Positions 52,633-64,000 of a DNA stretch of 64,000 nt are shown here, piece by piece. The position numbers were made by a program, and so were the translations under genes. This DNA comes from Chitinophaga pinensis. Its GTDB lineage: Bacteria; Bacteroidota; Bacteroidia; NS11-12g; UBA955. Below the pieces are notes generated by a model. The model was not told the DNA's origin and did no database searches. It saw only the letters and a program-made list of their open reading frames with translations. The first letter of the stretch is position 1, and every line of letters begins with the position of its first letter. The stretch covers positions 186,001 to 250,000 of the forward strand of contig CAMBXL010000001.1 in the NCBI GenBank assembly GCA_945871905.1, given 5' to 3'.

Positions 52633-52724
52633 TAAAAAAAATTAAAACCCTCATACCACGTTTTTGAAAAATTAGTGTCTTGTTAATAAAAACAAACCTA
52701 TTGTGGTACAAAATACAATACAAA

Positions 52725-53258
52725 ATGAATATAGAAGACCTTATACAAGGCTGTATAAAAGAGGACAGGGTTTGTCAAAGAGAACTTTATAAATTGTTTG
52801 CCGGTAAAATGATGGTAGTGTGTTTGAGATACGCAAAGGATAAAATGGAAGCAGAAGATATTTTGCAAGAAGGGTTTATTAAAATTTATGATAATATTTC
52901 TAAATTTAGAATGCAAGGATCTTTTGAAGGTTGGATAAGACGAATTATGGTGAATACAGCCATCAATAAAATTAGGGCTGGAAAAAGACACTTCGAAGAG
53001 TTGGATGATAGAATGATGAAGGTTTCTAATAGTCAAGATGTTTTGGATAATTTTTCTGCAAAAGATATCTTGAATTTGATTAGTGAAATGCCTGCCGGAT
53101 ACAAATATGTATTTAATATGTTCGCAATTGAAGGCTTTAGCCACAAAGAAATTGCAGATAGTTTAGGAATTGAAGAAGCGAGCTCACGAAGCCAATATGC
53201 GAAAGCAAAAAAATATTTACAACAAAAATTAATTGAATTACAAAAAGTTAAATTATGA
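52725..53258 (+). CDS. ECF-type RNA polymerase sigma factor
   Basis: The ATG at 52725 gives 177 residues beginning 'MNIEDLIQGCIKED', the usual start of Bacteroidota ECF factors; the frame runs further up to a TTG at 52680. Region 2 shows 'KDKMEAEDILQEGFIKIYDN' and 'FEGWIRRIMVNTAINKIR'; region 4 shows 'GYKYVFNMFAIEGFSHKEIA' with the helix-turn-helix. The stop overlaps the ATG of the next gene (ATGA), which encodes a probable anti-sigma factor. Its regulon is unknown; the three downstream genes encode T9SS-type surface proteins and are candidate targets. Confidence 0.93.
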   Translation: MNIEDLIQGCIKEDRVCQRELYKLFAGKMMVVCLRYAKDKMEAEDILQEGFIKIYDNISKFRMQGSFEGWIRRIMVNTAINKIRAGKRHFEELDDRMMKVSNSQDVLDNFSAKDILNLISEMPAGYKYVFNMFAIEGFSHKEIADSLGIEEASSRSQYAKAKKYLQQKLIELQKVKL

Positions 53259-54640
53259 AAAATGATTTATTTGAAAAGCAAATTTCAGAAAAGTTGGACC
53301 AATTTCAGGTTGCACCTAGTCGAGATTTGTTTAATGACATTATGAAAGCAAGAACACCGCAAGTTAAAAAAGCCTTTTGGTCAACTTGGCGTGTGCTTTC
53401 TGCTCTATTGATTACGGCTACAGTTTCTTTTAATGTATATAAATTATTGCCAACCCAAAATGATGAAATTGCATTCTCTGAAAAGTCGATTGTCTCCGAT
53501 AAAGAAAATCAAGAAAGCGCTCAGGAAAGTAAAGTCTCAAATTCAACTTCCGAACAAGGAGTTAAGAATGAGATGCTTGGTGCAATTCCTAAAAAGCAAA
53601 ATAGAAAAAGTGTAAACGCTACATTTAAGTCAAGCCCAAATGAAATTGCAAAAGGGGATATTGTTGAAAATAATAACGCAAACACATTGTTTAATGGTAA
53701 TGTTTTTGAAAGTTACTTTAATGCCAATTCCAAAAATCGCCCAACTATAGATTATGAAAAACATGATGGGAACAGTCACCTTTATGCGTTTGTAACAGAA
53801 AGCGAAAAAGACATTGACAAAGTGATGGTTAATCACATGAAAAACAAGTTGTTTGTTCCATTTGTCAACCATTTTCCAAAATTATCTTTAATTAAGGTGG
53901 AACAACAAAAGATTGAAAGTGTCAATAGAATGACTAAAAAACCTATTTATATTGATTTGTTTCAATTAAACTCCTTTTCAAAACCAGTTATCTCTAACAG
54001 CCAATTTCAACTTCAAAATATGGGTGCCTTGGCAACCAACTCAGCTTCGTTCGGTTGGGGCGTTAATGTAGAACTTCCTTTGAAGGGAAGATGGAATGTG
54101 TTTTCAGGCGTTCATAGTTTTAACTTAAATAATCAATACAAAGGACAAATTAAGTATAGTGAAAATGAAGAGAAAATTACGAAAACAACCAGATTTATCA
54201 ATGATCCTATTAAAGGTGTAATTACTGTTGAATCCTTTGATACCTCCCTTGTTTCTGTTTCTAAAAGTAAAAATATAGAGTTGCAAAATTCATATAAATT
54301 AATTCAAATTCCATTGGGAATGAGCTATAATTTTGGATACAAGTCATTCGAATTTTCATTAAATGCTTCAGCTATGCTAAATTGGTCTAGAGAACAAAGT
54401 TTTCAGTCCATTAATTGGCAAAATGACCAAGTCAATAAGACAGAATCTTCTAATATTTTGTTTGGCTTAGGTGTCAATGCCGGAATTAAGGTTTATTATC
54501 CTTTGTCAAATCATTTTAAAGTGTTTGTAATGCCTGGGATTCAGTCATACAGTATGAATGGGGTTAAATCTTCATACTCACACAACGAGTCATTATTGGC
54601 GAAACAACTGCAAGTTGGAATTAGATACAGCGTGTTTTAA
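53255..54640 (+). CDS. Putative envelope-spanning anti-sigma/outer-membrane beta-barrel protein
   Basis: This 461-residue protein has a short charged N-terminus (1-43, 'LFEKQISEKLDQFQVAPS'), one transmembrane helix (about 45-63), a low-complexity Ser/Asn/Lys linker (about 70-240) and a C-terminal region of about 210 residues that alternates hydrophobic and polar residues ('LIQIPLGMSYNFGYKSFEF', 'GVNAGIKVYYPLSNHFKVF') and ends in 'GIRYSVF'. A terminal phenylalanine after such strands is typical of outer-membrane barrels. The N-terminal layout and the position directly after the ECF sigma gene (4-base overlap) are typical of anti-sigma factors. The whole would span both membranes, passing a surface signal to the sigma factor. 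I know of no name for this gene; the functional call is inference. Confidence 0.65.
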   Translation: MKNDLFEKQISEKLDQFQVAPSRDLFNDIMKARTPQVKKAFWSTWRVLSALLITATVSFNVYKLLPTQNDEIAFSEKSIVSDKENQESAQESKVSNSTSEQGVKNEMLGAIPKKQNRKSVNATFKSSPNEIAKGDIVENNNANTLFNGNVFESYFNANSKNRPTIDYEKHDGNSHLYAFVTESEKDIDKVMVNHMKNKLFVPFVNHFPKLSLIKVEQQKIESVNRMTKKPIYIDLFQLNSFSKPVISNSQFQLQNMGALATNSASFGWGVNVELPLKGRWNVFSGVHSFNLNNQYKGQIKYSENEEKITKTTRFINDPIKGVITVESFDTSLVSVSKSKNIELQNSYKLIQIPLGMSYNFGYKSFEFSLNASAMLNWSREQSFQSINWQNDQVNKTESSNILFGLGVNAGIKVYYPLSNHFKVFVMPGIQSYSMNGVKSSYSHNESLLAKQLQVGIRYSVF

Positions 54641-56172
54641 TGCTTAAATACCTTTTCATATTGCTTTGTCCTGTGTTGAGCTTGTATTCTCAAGCTTCAA
54701 TGGGAGAGATGTCATTGAACAGGATGAAAGTATTCGCTAATTCTAACGGATTGTTATTTGATAGTATAGGTTTTCAAGGGTTGTTTAATAAAAACATTGG
54801 ATTTTCTAGCGGAGTAGGCGTGTGGATGTGCGCAACGGACAATAATGGTGATTTAAGGGTGGCTGCTCACCAATTGGGCGGATCTAATCATGAGTTTTGG
54901 GCAGGTCCATTGGCATTGAATGGAGGAAATGCAGCCAATTCAAATGATTGGAATTATACTTATTATATAACGTCGGAAGAAGTGAATAATCATCAAATAA
55001 ATTTTAATAAAAATGGGTATCAAATGCCCCAATCAATTAAAAATTGGCCTGGCTCAAAAGGAAGCCCTTTTGCACAAGTCTTAGCTCCGTTTGTTGATTA
55101 TCAAAATAATGATCAAATATATACGCCAATGGAAGGTGATTATCCGTATTTCCAAGGAGATAAATTGATTTATTCAATTTCGAATGATAAATATGCGAGT
55201 CACACTTATTCCAATACACAGCCATTAGGAGTTGAATTGCATACTTCTATTTATGGTTTTAATACACAAGATTCAGTTTTAGTAAATGCTATTTTGGTGA
55301 GGTATGTAGTTTACAATCGTTCGAATATCAATTATAATAATTTTAGGTTTTCAGTCGTTAATAGTTTTAAGATTGGGCAAGTTGAAAATGAATATTTGGG
55401 TACTGATGTAAAGAATAAAATATTATTTGCGTACAATGATTTTAGTGATGCAACGTTTGATGGTCGGCTTGTGTCTTTGAGTTGTATGGCACTTAATAAT
55501 ACTATAAATTCAACCATGTATTATAATAATAACAATGATATTATTAATGGAAGGCCTACGAATGCAAGTGACTTTAAAGCATTGATGAGTGGTAAGTGGA
55601 AAAATGGAAGTTCATTAAAGTATGGTGGAAATGGAGTTGATGGGAGTTCTAATGCCCATTTTGTTTATCCTTTTGATACCGATTCTGAAAATAACAACTT
55701 AATGTGGAGTGAACCTTTGGTGGGGAATTTACCGGGAAGAAGAATTGGTTTAATGAATTTTGATAGTTTGACTTTGAGTGCAGGAGGATTTGTTTATTTT
55801 GATTTGCTTTACAGTTTTGTTGATGAAAAATATAATAATATTAAACAAATAGAGGATAATTGTTTAAGAGTTAAGCAAGCTTTGATTGATAATAAAACAC
55901 TAGCAAACAAACCCAAATCAAGTAAAAATAGACTCAATAACATGGTTTATCCTAATCCGTTAAAAAGTGGTGGAAAATTGTATTTTGCAGAAGTGCTTGA
56001 AAATAATATTGTAATAGAGATATTTAATCACCAAGGGCAATTGGTTTATCAAAAAAATTTGGATAACACTGTTAAGTATATTACCTTACCTGACAGTTTT
56101 GTACATGGTGTCCATTTTTTAAGAATTAAAAAATTAAACACAATTGAGTGTTACAAAATAACAATAGAATAA
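54640..56172 (+). CDS. T9SS type A sorting-domain protein of unknown function
   Basis: The 510-residue protein starts with a short signal peptide ('YLFILLCPVLSLYSQ') and ends with a type A T9SS sorting domain (about 435-510, 'MVYPNPLKSGGKL' to 'CYKITIE'). The central part is beta-rich with many Asn, Gly and aromatic residues and the blocks 'FSSGVGVWMCATDNNGDLR' and 'PMEGDYPYFQGD'; I recognise no enzyme motif. Its start codon overlaps the stop of the anti-sigma/barrel gene by one base, so the two are translationally coupled, which makes it a likely partner or ligand of that surface system. Confidence 0.78.
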   Translation: MLKYLFILLCPVLSLYSQASMGEMSLNRMKVFANSNGLLFDSIGFQGLFNKNIGFSSGVGVWMCATDNNGDLRVAAHQLGGSNHEFWAGPLALNGGNAANSNDWNYTYYITSEEVNNHQINFNKNGYQMPQSIKNWPGSKGSPFAQVLAPFVDYQNNDQIYTPMEGDYPYFQGDKLIYSISNDKYASHTYSNTQPLGVELHTSIYGFNTQDSVLVNAILVRYVVYNRSNINYNNFRFSVVNSFKIGQVENEYLGTDVKNKILFAYNDFSDATFDGRLVSLSCMALNNTINSTMYYNNNNDIINGRPTNASDFKALMSGKWKNGSSLKYGGNGVDGSSNAHFVYPFDTDSENNNLMWSEPLVGNLPGRRIGLMNFDSLTLSAGGFVYFDLLYSFVDEKYNNIKQIEDNCLRVKQALIDNKTLANKPKSSKNRLNNMVYPNPLKSGGKLYFAEVLENNIVIEIFNHQGQLVYQKNLDNTVKYITLPDSFVHGVHFLRIKKLNTIECYKITIE

Positions 56173-56182
56173 AAAAATAGAT

Positions 56183-59100
56183 ATGAATAGATTATACAAA
56201 ATAGCATTATTGTTTACCGTCTTGTTGATTTTCAACAATGCAAAAGCCTCCCACATGATGGGCGGAGACATTACCTACGAATGCATTTCTAATGGGAAGT
56301 ATAAGTTTGTACTTAAGGTTTACCGCGATTGTCGTGGTATTCCTTTTAACAATCCTTCTATTAGTATGTATTGTGTAAGTGGAGGTAATATTAGTAATAA
56401 TACAAACGTAAGTTACACTCGGACTGCCATTAATGACATTACCCCAAATTGTACCTCAGGAACCGCGCCTTGTAATCCTGAAAATCAAACAGCTGGAGAG
56501 GGTATAGAGGAGCATATCTTTGAGGCAATTGTAGATTTTAATACAAGTCCGTTTAAAGCCTTAAAAGATGCAGGATGTTGCGAAATCAAAATCAAAGTGG
56601 AACAATGTTGCCGAAATGGGGCCATTACTACGATTTCTCCAGGTAACTTCTTTACAGATGCAATGATCAATATTTGTAATATTGATAAAACCAAAAAGAA
56701 ATGTAATACTTCTCCTCAATTGTCAATTCCACCGGTAGCTTACCTATGTTGTAACCAACCATTTACATACAACAATGGTGTGCGTGAGGTTATTGACGGA
56801 GATAGTTTGTCTTATGAACTTTCAACACCTTTGAGTGCTAATAATACCAATGAAAGTTACACAGGGAATTTTAATGCGCAAATCCCAATGACACCATATT
56901 GTCCCCCAAACCCTGGTGTTGTTAACTGTCGTCCATTGCCTAATGCGAAACCACCAAGAGGTTTTTATTTTGATAAAGAAACAGGTGATATCGTGTTTAC
57001 GCCTACAAAATGTGATGAGGTTGGTGTAATTGTAATACAAGTAAATGAGTGGAGAAAGGACTCAGCTACAAACAAATGGATACTAATCGGTTTTACCAGA
57101 CGTGACATGCAGCTTGTTGTAAAAACATGTCCTGACAATAATCCACCATACTTTACTGGTTCAAATAAATACAGTGTTTGCGAAGGGGATAGAATTTGTT
57201 TTAAAATACAATCTAAAGATGATCCATTTCTGCCAAACCAAACAAGACCTGATACAACCGTTTTAACATGGAACAATGGTATTCCAGGAGCATCCTTTAC
57301 AATATTAAATCCAACTGCTAGAGAAAAGCAAGCTGAATTCTGTTGGACAACTAAAATTGGAGATGCCCGACCAAATCCATACTCATTTACTGCTTCTGCA
57401 AAAGACGATGCTTGTCCAAAACCATCTTTAGCAAATAGAGGTTATAACGTTACTGTTTCTCCAAGAGCTGAAGACAAACGTAAATATACAATCCTCGACT
57501 GTGGTAAAGTTAAATTTACAGCCACTCCTAAAGACACGGTTAACTACAATCCTAAAAACTACAGATACAAATATACCGTTAGAGATTCCACAAACAGTGG
57601 TGTTCCTTTCTTTATGACCTTTAACAGAACTGACAGTTTTAAATTTAAACGTGGTGGAAAATATATCATAGAACATGAAATTAATAACCCGCCATTTAAT
57701 TGTCCTACTGTTTATTCGGACACTATTATTTTGCCTCCAGTACTTGATGTTGAATTGGCTTTTGGTAAAGATACTTTCTTATGTGCAGGTAATTCATTAA
57801 CAGTAGAACCAATTGTTGCTTATGGTTTTGCTCCCTATAAATACAGATGGGAAGTGCCGGTTGGTACACACAAGTCCGGCGACACGCTTAATAAAATTAC
57901 TGTAACGCCTACTCAAACAACCCGAATAGTATTAAGGTTAACAGATAGAAATAAATGTGTGGATGCTGATACCATGGTTATTAAATATATCAAAAATCCA
58001 ATCGTTGATATTGGTCCAGACAGAAGGATTTGTACTTATGATTTTGTGACATTAGATGCTCAAAATGCAGATTCATTGATGTATGAGTGGAATACTATGG
58101 AAGATACCAGACAAATTACAATCAATGTAGCAGGTAAGTATTCAGTAAAAGTGTTAGACAGTATTTATAAATGTTTTGATACTGATACAATGGAATTATT
58201 TGTAAACGATACTGTCATAGCTATTTCAGGTGGTGATAGAGAAATTTGTCATCAAGATACTTTAAAAGTTATGGCCAAACGAAGACCTTTAGGGTTTACT
58301 CGTCAAATAACTTGGAGAGATATTAATTCTGGAGCAACTGTAGCTAATGATAGTTCTTTCAGATTGAAAATTACAACTTTAGCAACTCGAAAATACGAAA
58401 TGTTCTTAAGAGTAAATCAAGGAGGTGTTCTTTGTGAAGATTATGATACATTTACTCTTACAGTAAACCCTCTCCCCTCATTTATTTTTACGCCATTACC
58501 GCCACATTGTTATCAAGATGGGGCCATCAATTTAACAACAAGGAAGGTCGCAGTTGCTAAGGCTGGATTTGATAATTCAATTAGAGAATCGGATATCAGG
58601 TATTTCCAACAACACCGAAATCCTAGTTGGGTTACAGGCGGACCTGTTGGACAAAATACATACGTGTGGGATTTCCCTAAGTTTATTAGCAATGACCAAG
58701 TGCCAAAAGCTGGTATTACTGATATTATATGTTATGAATACAGAGATGCTAAAGGCTGTTACAATAGAGAATGTAAAAACATTAAGTTAAATCCTAACCC
58801 AACTGTAGAATTAGACAAAGGTACTTTCTGTCAAAAAGCGGGTCCAATTGATTTAGGTAAACTAATACTTAGACCTATTCCTTCAGCAAAAGCAGGTGGT
58901 CCTGAAAGTTTCAGATGTTTAGATGTTCCATCTGGTTCTGGGGTTGACCCTGATGCTATTGTTTATTGGGATTATACTACAATTCCAGCAACACCATACA
59001 TAGATCCAGGTTTAGAAGGTGAAAATCAAAAAACTGGACAATATCAAATAGAATACTGTTTCCAAGATGCTATTTCTGGCTGTAAATCATGCGACTCTGT

Positions 59101-60832
59101 ATGGATTACTGTTGTAAGATTGCCAGAAATTGAATTTAGTGGAATCCCTAAACAGTGTATCAACTACCCATTACTAGCATTAGATAGTTTTGCTAAAGAC
59201 AGAAATACTGGTCAACGTTTTGATAAAGGTGAATGGTCTACTGTTGAATTTAGAAACTCTCGTGACATGGGTAATCCAATTATAGCAAACGTGATTAATA
59301 ATTCGGTTAAAACTAAAAAGATATTTGACCCAAGTTTAGGTGCAGGACAATACTTGCTAAAGTTAACTGATATTTCAAGCGGATGTCCTGTGGCAGACAG
59401 TGTTGAAGTAACTGTTAATGGTTTACCTATCCTTAGAATCAATATTCCTGATACCGTATGTTCAAGTAATGCTCCTTTTGAATTGTTCAACGAACAACCT
59501 TCAGGCCCAGTAGGAACTTGGTCGGGAATAGGAGTCGTAGGGCGTGATTTTAACCCCGGCATCAGTCCTAAAACCAAACAATATGAGGATCCTATCCGTT
59601 TGAAATACGAATACACCAATCCTTTAACAGGTTGTAGTGACTCTATTGCGAAAAACATAAGAATACAAAGCCAACCAGAGGTTACTGTAACAACGCCAAG
59701 TCCATATCAACAGTGCGAAGGTCAAGTGTTTAACTTAGTTGCAACAAAAGCGTGGGCACAAAACACTACTTGGTCAAGTAGCGGTGATGGTAATTTTTCT
59801 GACAATAGTACCTTAAGTACAATATACACCCATGGCTTACAAGACACCTCTTTGATAGGGTTCAATGGTCAAGTGGTATTAAATATCAATACGATTAAAG
59901 AAGGTGTATGTCCTCCTGCTAAAGATGATATTCAGTTGATTATAGAGCCATATCCTCAGTATTCAATGCCAGTGCATTTTGTAAAATGTGAAGCTGCCGA
60001 TATTGACTTTTCTACAACTGTATTCAAACCAGCTGGTTCTCCTAATTTGAGATACACCTGGTACTTCGGTAATGGTGATACTCTGAGAAAATCTACAAAT
60101 GGAAATCCACAAAAAAGATATGATACTGCTCAAAGAGGATGGTATGATGTTAACGTAATAGTTCATAATCAGTGGGGAGCAAGTGACGACCAAGCTTGTA
60201 GTATTCAAAAAGATTCTATTGACTATGTAAGAGTGTTGCCTCAACCAAAAGCAGCCTTTAGCAGTGACCCAGGATTCTTTACTACTGTGGCATTTCCTAA
60301 ATTTAAATTTAAAAATGAAACACAATACAGATGGGGTGCAGAGAATATGAGTTATCTGTGGTCGTTTGACTTATATGATATCGAAGATACTTCTACACAA
60401 ATCAACCCAATTAAAACTTACCCATCTGATACTACAGTTTATTGGGTTAATTTAATAGCAAGATACACTTACCCTGCAAGCGGAGATATTACAATAAGTG
60501 AAGATGTGGTTTGTGAAGATTCTATCGGTGCAATTAGAAAAATTGGTCCAGACGTAACAGTGTTTGTTCCAACAGCCTTTAGCCCTGAAAGAACAGGACC
60601 AAAAGTAAACAACGTTTTCAGACCAATTGTAAATGGCGAAAAATCTTACAGTATTATTTTGTTCAATAGATGGGGTGAAATCTTATGGGAAAGCAAAGAT
60701 AAATTTGAAAGTTGGAATGGTCAGTACAAAGACCAAGATGCCCAACAAGATGTTTATATTTGGCACATAAAGGTTACTGCCTACGATGGTGAAGAATATA
60801 AATACGAGGGAACTGTTACCTTGTTAAGATAA
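56183..60832 (+). CDS. Giant gliding-motility-associated C-terminal-domain surface protein
   Basis: The 1549-residue protein has a signal peptide (cleaved near 'NAKA') followed by an N-terminal domain beginning 'SHMMGGDITYECI' and 'YKFVLKVYRDCRG', with many cysteines (about 25-320). Then come several PKD/Ig-like beta-sandwich repeats with 'LRLTDRNKC', 'VDIGPDRRICTYD' and 'VLDSIYKCFDTDT'-type edges. The last 90 residues are the type B T9SS sorting tail ('VFVPTAFSPE', 'YSIILFNRWGEILWE', 'WNGQYKDQD', 'GTVTLLR'). The protein should be exported to the cell surface, perhaps as an adhesin. It is 10 bases downstream of the previous gene and probably in the same operon. A paralogue follows. Confidence 0.9.
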   Translation: MNRLYKIALLFTVLLIFNNAKASHMMGGDITYECISNGKYKFVLKVYRDCRGIPFNNPSISMYCVSGGNISNNTNVSYTRTAINDITPNCTSGTAPCNPENQTAGEGIEEHIFEAIVDFNTSPFKALKDAGCCEIKIKVEQCCRNGAITTISPGNFFTDAMINICNIDKTKKKCNTSPQLSIPPVAYLCCNQPFTYNNGVREVIDGDSLSYELSTPLSANNTNESYTGNFNAQIPMTPYCPPNPGVVNCRPLPNAKPPRGFYFDKETGDIVFTPTKCDEVGVIVIQVNEWRKDSATNKWILIGFTRRDMQLVVKTCPDNNPPYFTGSNKYSVCEGDRICFKIQSKDDPFLPNQTRPDTTVLTWNNGIPGASFTILNPTAREKQAEFCWTTKIGDARPNPYSFTASAKDDACPKPSLANRGYNVTVSPRAEDKRKYTILDCGKVKFTATPKDTVNYNPKNYRYKYTVRDSTNSGVPFFMTFNRTDSFKFKRGGKYIIEHEINNPPFNCPTVYSDTIILPPVLDVELAFGKDTFLCAGNSLTVEPIVAYGFAPYKYRWEVPVGTHKSGDTLNKITVTPTQTTRIVLRLTDRNKCVDADTMVIKYIKNPIVDIGPDRRICTYDFVTLDAQNADSLMYEWNTMEDTRQITINVAGKYSVKVLDSIYKCFDTDTMELFVNDTVIAISGGDREICHQDTLKVMAKRRPLGFTRQITWRDINSGATVANDSSFRLKITTLATRKYEMFLRVNQGGVLCEDYDTFTLTVNPLPSFIFTPLPPHCYQDGAINLTTRKVAVAKAGFDNSIRESDIRYFQQHRNPSWVTGGPVGQNTYVWDFPKFISNDQVPKAGITDIICYEYRDAKGCYNRECKNIKLNPNPTVELDKGTFCQKAGPIDLGKLILRPIPSAKAGGPESFRCLDVPSGSGVDPDAIVYWDYTTIPATPYIDPGLEGENQKTGQYQIEYCFQDAISGCKSCDSVWITVVRLPEIEFSGIPKQCINYPLLALDSFAKDRNTGQRFDKGEWSTVEFRNSRDMGNPIIANVINNSVKTKKIFDPSLGAGQYLLKLTDISSGCPVADSVEVTVNGLPILRINIPDTVCSSNAPFELFNEQPSGPVGTWSGIGVVGRDFNPGISPKTKQYEDPIRLKYEYTNPLTGCSDSIAKNIRIQSQPEVTVTTPSPYQQCEGQVFNLVATKAWAQNTTWSSSGDGNFSDNSTLSTIYTHGLQDTSLIGFNGQVVLNINTIKEGVCPPAKDDIQLIIEPYPQYSMPVHFVKCEAADIDFSTTVFKPAGSPNLRYTWYFGNGDTLRKSTNGNPQKRYDTAQRGWYDVNVIVHNQWGASDDQACSIQKDSIDYVRVLPQPKAAFSSDPGFFTTVAFPKFKFKNETQYRWGAENMSYLWSFDLYDIEDTSTQINPIKTYPSDTTVYWVNLIARYTYPASGDITISEDVVCEDSIGAIRKIGPDVTVFVPTAFSPERTGPKVNNVFRPIVNGEKSYSIILFNRWGEILWESKDKFESWNGQYKDQDAQQDVYIWHIKVTAYDGEEYKYEGTVTLLR

Positions 60833-60854
60833 TAATTGAAATGAAAATTAAGCT

Positions 60855-60888
60855 AAAAGTAGTTTTGAAATTAATCAAAACTACTTTT
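60855..60888 (+). terminator. Perfect 14-bp hairpin between the two giant surface-protein genes
   Basis: AAAAGTAGTTTTGA (60855-60868) pairs perfectly with 60875-60888 around a 6-base loop. It is followed by GG and five T, so it may be a terminator or partial attenuator. It lies 22 bases after the stop of the upstream gene. Confidence 0.65.
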
Positions 60889-60903
60889 GGTTTTTATAAG
60901 AAT

Positions 60904-63900
60904 ATGAAAAACAATAATCGAAATATCTTTTTTAAGAATCTTATAGGTTGTTTCATTTTTATTGTTTTTTCTCAATCACACTATCTAAAAGCATCACATA
61001 TTTTAGGTGCCGAGATTACATACAAACATGTTTTTGCATCAAAGTATAAGTTCTATTTAACCGTATACAGAGATTGTAATGAGTGTAAGTTTAATGGCAA
61101 TGGAGGAGGAAACTCTAATTTGAATTGCAGTGATATTTCGAGCTTAACAATTAGAGGTTCCGAAGGTACTAGTTATTCTCATTTAGATCTAGCATCGATT
61201 GAATTGGGAAGAAAAGAAGTTGTTGATATTACAAAAACATGCTCTACGGCTGTCTCTAAATGTGGGATTAACGCAACGGTAAACTATGGTTTCGAAAAAC
61301 AAGTATTTGAAGGTGATTTTGATTTTATTGATTTGCTTGGTCAAAACTACTGTAAGTTTGATGTCTCTATAGGGATTTCATCTAGAAATATTAAAGTAAA
61401 CCCAACAACCGCGGAGCAGAATTTTTATAATTATACAACGTTATCACTATGCAACAATAATAGCAATCAATCAACGGTTTTTCAAAATTCACCTCAGTTT
61501 CTTTATCCCACAAATCAGTCCCAGATTGTAAGTTTAGGGGTGTCTAATCCTGACAATGATTCTTTGGTTTTCTTTTTAAAGCCTGCCAAAGTGAATCGTT
61601 TGTCAAATGTAAGTTACAGTAGTGGAAGGAACTTCAATGAGCCATTTTCTTACTATTGTTTAAACATGTTCTCTTCTTGCGTCCCCAATGTGACTTCCTT
61701 GCCTTTTCAGGGCTTTTACATATCTAGCTTAACGGGTGATGTTTCGTTTACGCCTATTATTAATAACCAAGGCGGTGTAATAGTAGTAGAATGTGAGGAG
61801 TGGAAAAAGGATATTAATGGCATATATTTTTTGGCAGGTGTAGTCAGAAGAGATATTTATGCTGAAACAATCAATGCCAGCAACAATACACCAAGTATTG
61901 TTCTGTCAAATAACAACCTTTTAGTATGCCAAGGAGAATCGAAAAGTATAGAAATCCAAATTACAGATTTGCCTTTTAATTCCTCTGTTTTTGATAATAC
62001 TGAAATTGAACTGTTAGGGAATGAATCAAACGCAATTATTGAACCGTTACTAAGCCAATTGCCTGGTGTTAAAAGATTTAAATTAAATATTGTAGGAACT
62101 TCTTTAAATATTGGGGAACATAGATTGTTAATTAAAGTTAAAGACAATTATTGTCCTATCTATTCTGAATCGTCTCAAACGCTGTATTTAAATATCAAAT
62201 CTTTGCCGAATTTTGTAATAAATAAAAGTGTAAAAAATTGTGGTGACTTAACACTTCAACCACAGCAAAATAGTTCAAGTAACTATTTATGGACTTTAAA
62301 AAACATAAATGGACAAATTATAAAACAATCAAATTCACGAAAATTAAATCACCAACTTCAAAATGGAGGACAATACATTGCTGAAGTTTTAGTGCCATTG
62401 ACAAACACAAGCTGTGAAAAATTAGTGATTGATACATTTTTTGTGGAAGACCTTACGCCACCCCAACTCAACATGGGTCCAGATATTAAAGTATGTAAAA
62501 ATACACCATTTGAATTAATGCCCATTACAGAGGTTGAAAAGCCCGGTGGACAATGGTTTGTAAATAATACGCTTGTAAATGCTGTTCCATTTAAAGGAAA
62601 AACCAATGTTCCAATACAATTGGTGTTTAGATACAAGTTGACCAATGGATGTTATACAGATGATGTGGTAAAAATAGAGAACCATCCTTTTTTGAATTAT
62701 ACTTTAAGTGACGTTGACTTATGTTTGAATGAACTAAAAGAATTTAATAAAATTCAAATAGAACCACAAGGGTTAAGTGCTGTTAAAAAGTTTGAATTAA
62801 CCGAAGCTGAAGTAAATGTAAATCTTAATAATCCTGTTTTGAATCAATGGGAGTTTGGATTAATAGAAAATAAATCATCCTCTTTTAAACTGTTTTCTGT
62901 AATTGAAGACATAAACTCTTGTATTTACAATGATACCATTAATGTCGAAATAAAAGATACATTCAAAATTGATTTGGTTTTGCCTCCTACTATATGTATT
63001 AACCAATTGCCTTTTACTTTGCCTCAGCTAACTAATGGAAATTGGACATTATTGTCCAATAATACAAATTTGACAAATAAATTAAGACTAAGTGATATAG
63101 GTTCAAATAAAAATATCCTTTTGAAGATAATGGTCGAAAATAATACTTGCTACTCTCAAAAAAGTTTTGAGTTGAACATTATAGATACCGTACAAATAGA
63201 TTTTCAAGGTCCAGATAAGGTTAGATTATGTGAGAATTTTGAACAATTTAATTTAATAGCTAACCCTGCAAATGGAACATGGTATGGTACAGGCGTAGAT
63301 GGAAATGCATTTAAGTTGATTAAGGAAAATATCGACATTAAAGATAATGTAGTTTTTTACCGTTATAACGCAGCAAATGGATGTGTTTCTATTAAAGATT
63401 TTTCAATCGAAGTCAACAAATTGCCATATTTGAATATTTACCACCCACAAGACAGTGTTTGTTTTGGTGATATTATTCAGTTTCAAGCAGAAATTCACGA
63501 GAATTATTCAGGTTATTGGTTCACAAATGGTTATGGTAGATTTAATACACCTAATCAATTGTTTACCACTTATTACCCCTCTAAGCAAGATGTTCAACTA
63601 GGTTTAACAAGTTTCTTGTATACTATTCAAACAAATGGGATCTGTGGTAATGTTAGTAAGCAAGTTGAGGTATTTATCAAAGATGGTCCCGTAGGGTCTA
63701 TCGTTCTAGACTATCCTAAAGAGGTTTGTGAGCCCGCCAAATTCCAATTTAAATCTAATTTTAATGATATAAACTTACAAAAATGGTATATCAATGACAG
63801 TCTGATTGAAACTTATGATTATGAATTTCCATTCGAAACTACATTAAAAGCAGGAGAGTATTTTGTGAAAACAAAAGTAAAAGATGGGACTTGTTCAGCC

Positions 63901-64000
63901 ACAGGGATTTCAGAAAAGATTATTGTTTTACCTCAACCCAAAGTTGATTTTTATTCTAATCCTAATGGTAAAATGTCAAAAGAAATGCCAAGGTTATATG
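60904..64000 (+). CDS. Second giant cysteine-rich surface protein, incomplete at window end
   Basis: The frame is open from 60841 through the last base; the ATG at 60904 is preferred because it gives a standard signal peptide ('LIGCFIFIVFSQSHYLKA') and lies after the hairpin. At least 1032 residues are present. The mature N-terminus, 'SHILGAEITYKHV' with 'YKFYLTVYRDCNE', is homologous to that of the preceding protein. Ig/PKD-like modules follow, with 'LPKVNRL'-free cysteine blocks such as 'TNGCYTDDVVKI' and 'AANGCVSIKDF'. The frame ends in 'LPQPKVDFYSNPNG', a stretch that in this family often precedes the type B T9SS tail, so the tail probably lies just beyond the window. Role: exported surface adhesin-like protein (inferred). 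Confidence 0.85.
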   Translation, partial: MKNNNRNIFFKNLIGCFIFIVFSQSHYLKASHILGAEITYKHVFASKYKFYLTVYRDCNECKFNGNGGGNSNLNCSDISSLTIRGSEGTSYSHLDLASIELGRKEVVDITKTCSTAVSKCGINATVNYGFEKQVFEGDFDFIDLLGQNYCKFDVSIGISSRNIKVNPTTAEQNFYNYTTLSLCNNNSNQSTVFQNSPQFLYPTNQSQIVSLGVSNPDNDSLVFFLKPAKVNRLSNVSYSSGRNFNEPFSYYCLNMFSSCVPNVTSLPFQGFYISSLTGDVSFTPIINNQGGVIVVECEEWKKDINGIYFLAGVVRRDIYAETINASNNTPSIVLSNNNLLVCQGESKSIEIQITDLPFNSSVFDNTEIELLGNESNAIIEPLLSQLPGVKRFKLNIVGTSLNIGEHRLLIKVKDNYCPIYSESSQTLYLNIKSLPNFVINKSVKNCGDLTLQPQQNSSSNYLWTLKNINGQIIKQSNSRKLNHQLQNGGQYIAEVLVPLTNTSCEKLVIDTFFVEDLTPPQLNMGPDIKVCKNTPFELMPITEVEKPGGQWFVNNTLVNAVPFKGKTNVPIQLVFRYKLTNGCYTDDVVKIENHPFLNYTLSDVDLCLNELKEFNKIQIEPQGLSAVKKFELTEAEVNVNLNNPVLNQWEFGLIENKSSSFKLFSVIEDINSCIYNDTINVEIKDTFKIDLVLPPTICINQLPFTLPQLTNGNWTLLSNNTNLTNKLRLSDIGSNKNILLKIMVENNTCYSQKSFELNIIDTVQIDFQGPDKVRLCENFEQFNLIANPANGTWYGTGVDGNAFKLIKENIDIKDNVVFYRYNAANGCVSIKDFSIEVNKLPYLNIYHPQDSVCFGDIIQFQAEIHENYSGYWFTNGYGRFNTPNQLFTTYYPSKQDVQLGLTSFLYTIQTNGICGNVSKQVEVFIKDGPVGSIVLDYPKEVCEPAKFQFKSNFNDINLQKWYINDSLIETYDYEFPFETTLKAGEYFVKTKVKDGTCSATGISEKIIVLPQPKVDFYSNPNGKMSKEMPRLY

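Follow-up and report, generated by a model that had tools for sequence, protein, structure and literature searches.

In bacteria, signals from the cell surface usually reach the cytoplasm through relays of several proteins. The locus described here raises the question of whether a single polypeptide can connect the outer membrane with an ECF sigma factor, and what such a device would control. The gene concerned lies in a window of 64 kb, by which we mean the whole stretch of 64,000 nucleotides that was analyzed, and a preliminary description had read its product as an envelope-spanning anti-sigma factor. All features of the window given below lie on the plus strand.

Locus layout and predicted protein architecture

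The first gene of the locus (52725..53258) encodes an ECF sigma factor of 177 aa, which matched Sigma70_r2 (E 2.5e-15) and Sigma70_r4_2 (E 5.2e-12) in a Pfam scan and was also placed in a sigma tree (see below). The gene for the putative Dma-like transenvelope anti-sigma factor (461 aa, 53255..54640) starts with an ATG at 53255 and overlaps the sigma gene, whose stop ends at 53258, by the 4 bases first described. The next gene begins at 54640, giving a 1-base overlap, and encodes a T9SS type A surface protein of 510 aa (54640..56172). Its type A sorting domain scored 30.2 bits with TIGR04183 (cut-off 23) and 26.2 with Pfam PF18962, slightly below the cut-off of 27, which bears out the earlier assignment of the coupled gene as a T9SS surface protein. 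It is followed by a giant T9SS type B protein of 1549 aa (56183..60832; CHU_C PF13585, 33.1 bits, cut-off 27) and a second giant surface protein of 1211 aa (60841..64000; ORF on L083), which extends past the window end and resembles the first giant as judged by eye. The SprA translocon was found in the source genome with 2413 bits, indicating that the genome has a T9SS.

The 461-aa protein was modeled with AlphaFold2 from 15 sequences (the window and related loci). The mean pLDDT was 61.8, a low value due to the disordered part of the chain. Helices were predicted at residues 4-16 and 25-33, within a putative cytoplasmic sigma-holding segment (residues 1-39, 53255..53371) that contains eight lysine and arginine residues and is marked in the alignment by the conserved pattern FEKxI..KL...E..PS..L...I..KRA. 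A single inner-membrane helix follows (residues 40-64, 53372..53446), in agreement with the short N-terminus and one helix originally described. The linker had been given as 170 residues; a long disordered stretch was indeed predicted, with pLDDT mostly < 50, but it measures 162 residues (65-226, 53447..53932). The C-terminal part was modeled as a predicted outer-membrane barrel of eight long strands (residues 231-460, 53945..54634; block pLDDT 62-95), and the final residue is F461, as expected from the barrel-like C-terminus ending in phenylalanine noted before. In structure comparisons, residues 227-461 matched OmpA (9a2m; Z 17.2, 168 aligned, 2.8 Å), OmpW (2f1v; Z 17.0, 173 aligned, 3.0 Å) and NspA (Z 16.4, 154 residues, 2.9 Å). 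The model and the OmpA/OmpW-type matches together rule out a soluble C-terminal domain.

OMP_b-brl was the sole Pfam family reported for the protein at E up to 1. A FecR-type anti-sigma identity was dropped, the FecR domain being absent from the same scan. Two other matches were ascribed to chance: a RodZ-like NCBIfam match in the helix and linker (15.6 bits, cut-off 375) and a single weak PDB sequence match to a putative deacetylase (E 0.019).

Within the genus, the protein was matched in 16 of 17 genomes, with identities to the window protein of 26-33%, and an ECF gene lies directly upstream in all 15 genus loci that hold upstream DNA (L001-L015). With 16 of 17 genomes matching and 15 of 15 loci carrying the ECF gene, the pairing of the two genes is not due to chance. 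The same search gave weaker matches outside the genus, mainly over the barrel, and 30 loci among the matches listed were inspected. Conservation across the 15 genus sequences is highest at residues 1-35 and at residues 311-322, the tip of a barrel hairpin (majority frequency 0.71 each). The linker is variable (0.34 at residues 66-150) apart from an island at residues 151-178 (53705..53788), with the pattern YFN....RP.I....H.G.SHLY, where majority frequency rises to 0.65 compared with 0.34 and 0.39 in the linker on either side.

Kinship with the Dma family

This domain order has a published counterpart. The Dma family of Bacteroides thetaiotaomicron is described as having an N-terminal sigma-binding domain, a transmembrane helix, a long disordered tether and a C-terminal barrel, and as being encoded beside an ECF21 sigma (PMC13088901). 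According to the same account, Dma1-3 are envelope-spanning anti-sigma factors with a barrel, and the characterized members function as anti-sigma factors; the Dma2 mutant shows raised expression mainly of its own operon, in dependence on the cognate sigma, and an outer membrane vesicle phenotype is given for the Dma1 and Dma2 mutants only (PMC13088901). The novelty of kind implied by the preliminary description is thereby withdrawn. The window protein has the single helix after a short N-terminus, the long disordered tether, the C-terminal barrel and the ECF neighbor of the Dma proteins, and it is homologous to them.

Dma2-type operons were located through the DUF4943 gene, which PMC13088901 places beside dma2, and 20 Bacteroidaceae loci were then used. 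The window-family profile matched 18 of the 19 Dma-like ORFs that phmmer found in these loci; five of them belong to the dma2-type operon located through DUF4943 or were identified as near homologues. Profile-profile comparison gave probabilities of 99.5% with a Dma1-like set and 97.7% with a Dma2 set. In both cases the match covers the barrel, so that a common fold carries this homology to Bacteroidaceae Dma. In an 83-row tree, the window sigma grouped with the Bacteroidaceae Das-type sigmas at 91/92, below the tool's starred level, and five other ECF sigmas of the source genome fell apart from its group. The original reading of the protein is partly supported: the predicted structure argues for the envelope-spanning architecture, and the profiles and the sigma tree argue for the anti-sigma role by homology, while contact of residues 1-43 with the sigma and a signal coming from the surface would be further, putative parts of it.

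Related proteins were also seen in other settings. Several loci of family f2 (L020-L023, L026, L029) encode ~410-aa proteins that combine a hydrophobic stretch near the N-terminus with a related barrel, without an adjoining sigma gene; by eye, their neighbors are pyridoxamine oxidase-like and acetyl-CoA acetyltransferase-like genes. Elsewhere in the source genome (L081 2980-4482, G000:C4), an ECF gene is accompanied by a 138-aa one-helix protein and a 165-aa protein that is Spy/CpxP-like by eye.

The T9SS surface protein and the strand 3-4 hairpin

Gene order was examined class-wide in 295 genomes, and the best 29 loci besides the window's own were opened. The E-values of this search, as of the Bacteroidaceae and sorting-domain-sister ORF searches, were obtained on small sets of ORFs and do not hold for whole genomes. 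An ECF gene lies directly upstream of the Dma-like gene in 28 of the 29 loci; in the exception (L139) the locus end cuts the ORF. The two-gene order of the window recurs across the class. A T9SS surface-protein gene lies directly downstream in 18 loci, from families f1, f2, f24, f29, f35 and f40, and is absent from the other 11, so that the order ECF sigma, Dma-like protein and ~510-aa T9SS type A protein recurs in six families of the class. Viewed in reverse, a Dma-like gene is found upstream in 15 of the best 30 loci of the surface-protein family, a family that is much wider overall (matches in 261 of 295 genomes). The linked surface proteins cluster in their tree, which needs two label changes compared with 11 on average for shuffled labels; the three genes have thus probably been passed on as a unit for a long time. 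The longer f1 and f2 loci also carry giant proteins after the trio, like the window, their kinship to the window's giants being judged by eye. The T9SS-protein link turns out to be a distinctive and conserved feature of the window system, and what is new here is this variant, not the envelope-spanning anti-sigma kind itself.

The model of the surface protein has a mean pLDDT of 65.4. Over residues 18-423 it is similar to the N-terminal supersandwich domain found in several glycoside hydrolases and phosphorylases (for 9ju0, Z 17.9, 253 aligned, 3.2 Å). The catalytic domain of the supersandwich enzymes would seem to have no counterpart in a protein of 510 aa.

Strands 3 and 4 of the anti-sigma barrel are long (residues 280-317 and 321-362) and form a hairpin (residues 285-353, 54107..54313) with the tip FINDPI at 54194-54211. 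Because the chain enters the barrel on its periplasmic side, the strand 3-4 loop should lie outside the cell. Between G285 and P353, the hairpin measures 65-69 residues in all 33 cargo-linked proteins (15 of the genus including the window, and 18 class-wide), and all 33 carry a tip proline; the linked proteins are not independent samples, since they mostly descend together. Mean identity of the class-wide linked barrels is only 22%. Among these 18 proteins, hairpin length has an SD of 0.93 residues; the three remaining outer loops give 3.3, 1.4 and 0.7, and the linker gives 32. The equivalent loop is 17-32 residues long in 19 of 19 Bacteroidaceae Dma proteins. In the 11 unlinked class-wide proteins the hairpin spans 30-84 residues, and three of them, at 63, 64 and 68, come close to or fall within the linked range; hairpin length would thus mark T9SS linkage only partly. 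The tip proline separates the two groups better (33/33 linked vs 2/11 unlinked, these being L138 and L142).

The source genome encodes a second Dma-like protein of 487 aa, located after an ECF gene (L078 3005-5015, G000:C2), which has a 66-residue hairpin and lacks both the tip proline and a following T9SS surface-protein gene. Its sigma, together with four unlinked sigmas (L126, L130, L131, L140), branches among the linked sigmas in the sigma tree, and the tip proline is missing from the Dma-like partners of all five.

A sister architecture was found beside another ECF gene of the source genome, which overlaps by 4 bases the gene of a 297-aa anti-sigma-like protein (L076 3061-4499, G000:C2). 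This protein is similar in its N-terminal segment and also has a hydrophobic helix, but it ends in a CHU_C T9SS type B domain (PF13585, E 2.6e-12) with no barrel; it is followed by a giant of 1828 aa whose end is likewise of type B. With the 297-aa protein as query, an ECF gene was seen beside a short sorting-domain protein in 26 of the 30 loci returned, the remaining four being long cargo-like ORFs (L084-L112 and L193-L197 were inspected). The same trio of ECF gene, short type B protein and giant occurs at four loci of four other genera, one of which is already among the 26. The sigmas of the sister proteins belong to the same large group of the sigma tree as the window sigma. PorP-like barrels are reported to hold type B domains at the surface (PMC9143113). 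In the papers searched, we found no description of an anti-sigma factor that carries a sorting domain.

Candidate promoter, proposed mechanism and alternatives

A promoter-like motif, CCACG-N14-GTGTC, precedes the sigma gene at 52656..52679. It is the one match in the 64-kb window, where 0.04 would be expected from shuffles. In the genus alignment, CCACG-N14/15-GTGTC is aligned in 14 of 14 loci, one of which reads CAACG. The exact motif stands before the sigma gene in 14 of the 17 genus genomes; in the remaining three, the motif reads CAACG in one genome, the Dma-like protein is unmatched in another, and the third has a sigma gene starting at the contig end. Conservation of the motif at this position suggests autoregulation, in agreement with the effect of the Dma2 mutant on its own operon reported in PMC13088901, and suggests that CCACG-GTGTC may serve as the promoter of the sigma's own operon. 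A wider regulon is unsupported by the motif: the 17 genus genomes hold 26 matches compared with 23 in the reversed control, and the 12 beyond the sigma promoter do not exceed that control. Of these 12, four lie inside ORFs, three have no ORF close by and five stand just before secreted-looking ORFs. The last five are at L206, L214, L215, L217 and L223, and three of the ORFs resemble the giants of the operon by eye. The source genome has two motif matches, the second inside a gene. A scan for ordinary promoters gave 20 matches vs 19.7 in shuffles and thus no excess.

Taken together, we hold with good confidence that a transenvelope Dma-type anti-sigma factor controls its own T9SS surface-protein operon. 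In the mechanism we propose, the ~39 N-terminal residues would bind and inhibit the neighboring ECF sigma, holding it at the inner membrane; residues 40-64 would cross that membrane and the ~160 disordered residues the periplasm, while the 8-stranded barrel would fix the far end in the outer membrane, with the long hairpin protruding at the surface. The sigma may then be freed by some change in the barrel or hairpin, such as tip occupancy, lost insertion or cleavage of the tether, and a signal would pass in this way from the surface to the sigma factor. Once free, the sigma would use the putative CCACG-GTGTC promoter to transcribe its own operon, raising the output of sigma, anti-sigma, T9SS type A surface protein and the two giant surface proteins.

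What the outer end reports can be read in several ways. The anti-sigma factor could be a meter of its own surface protein, with the T9SS type A protein docking on the hairpin tip and tip occupancy deciding whether the sigma is held, so that T9SS export feeds back directly on transcription; the type B-ended sisters would then be a second version, whose outer end itself enters the secretion route and reports on it. We offer this idea tentatively and regard it as rather unlikely. It is also conceivable, although still short of probable, that the protein senses outer-membrane quality: the barrel would be a test substrate of the barrel-assembly machinery, and on failed assembly or failed T9SS traffic it would be degraded in the periplasm and the sigma released, the hairpin being structural and binding nothing. 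A disordered linker would suit readout by a protease or by tension better than a conformational relay, and the sister with a T9SS sorting domain as its outer end agrees with a sensor that monitors delivery to the outer membrane; however, such a sensor does not need the fixed hairpin length and the tip proline, which all 33 linked proteins keep although mean barrel identity is 22% class-wide.

Binding of a polysaccharide by the barrel or the surface protein, which would make the operon a glycan-responsive surface system, seems unlikely. Dma2 has been proposed to sense an unknown glycan (PMC13088901) and the surface-protein model resembles the supersandwich of 9ju0, but no carbohydrate-active neighbor was recognized in the operon, the mean pLDDT of that model is 65 and a shared fold shows no function. 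That the protein is no anti-sigma factor at all, only a membrane tether or structural barrel protein sharing an operon with the sigma, is highly improbable: some more distant f2 relatives keep helix and barrel away from any adjoining sigma gene, yet 28 of 29 class-wide loci and 15 of 15 genus loci have the ECF gene immediately upstream, and members of the family with assigned roles are anti-sigma factors in PMC13088901.

Control of the operon by its own transenvelope anti-sigma factor would extend the Dma type from gut Bacteroides to T9SS-bearing Bacteroidota. Dma proteins seem to bridge surface and cytoplasm in one chain; here, the one-chain device goes together with one T9SS surface protein in six families, and the fixed-length hairpin with its conserved tip allows a candidate signal to be named.

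In FecI/FecR/FecA-type signaling, the state of the surface is reported to an ECF sigma by a barrel protein of the outer membrane together with an anti-sigma factor of the inner membrane. The window system is alike in that both functions serve an ECF sigma. It differs in that they are combined in one chain, which has an 8-stranded barrel and gave no FecR match in the Pfam scan, whereas the Fec type uses two proteins with a TonB-dependent receptor. With the Dma family it shares the domain order, the adjacent ECF sigma, a homologous barrel and a related sigma; unlike that family, it has a T9SS surface protein as neighbor instead of DUF4943 or NigD genes and a hairpin of 65-69 residues with a tip proline instead of a loop of 17-32, and its organism has a T9SS. 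In the PorA-PorXY-SigP pathway of Porphyromonas gingivalis, an ECF sigma lies downstream of a surface protein with a T9SS sorting domain, and there may be feedback on the T9SS (PMC7712824). A surface protein of this class is thus connected with an ECF sigma in both systems, but in the pathway as presented in PMC7712824 a two-component system carries the signal and no transenvelope anti-sigma factor takes part, whereas at the present locus one chain would span the envelope.
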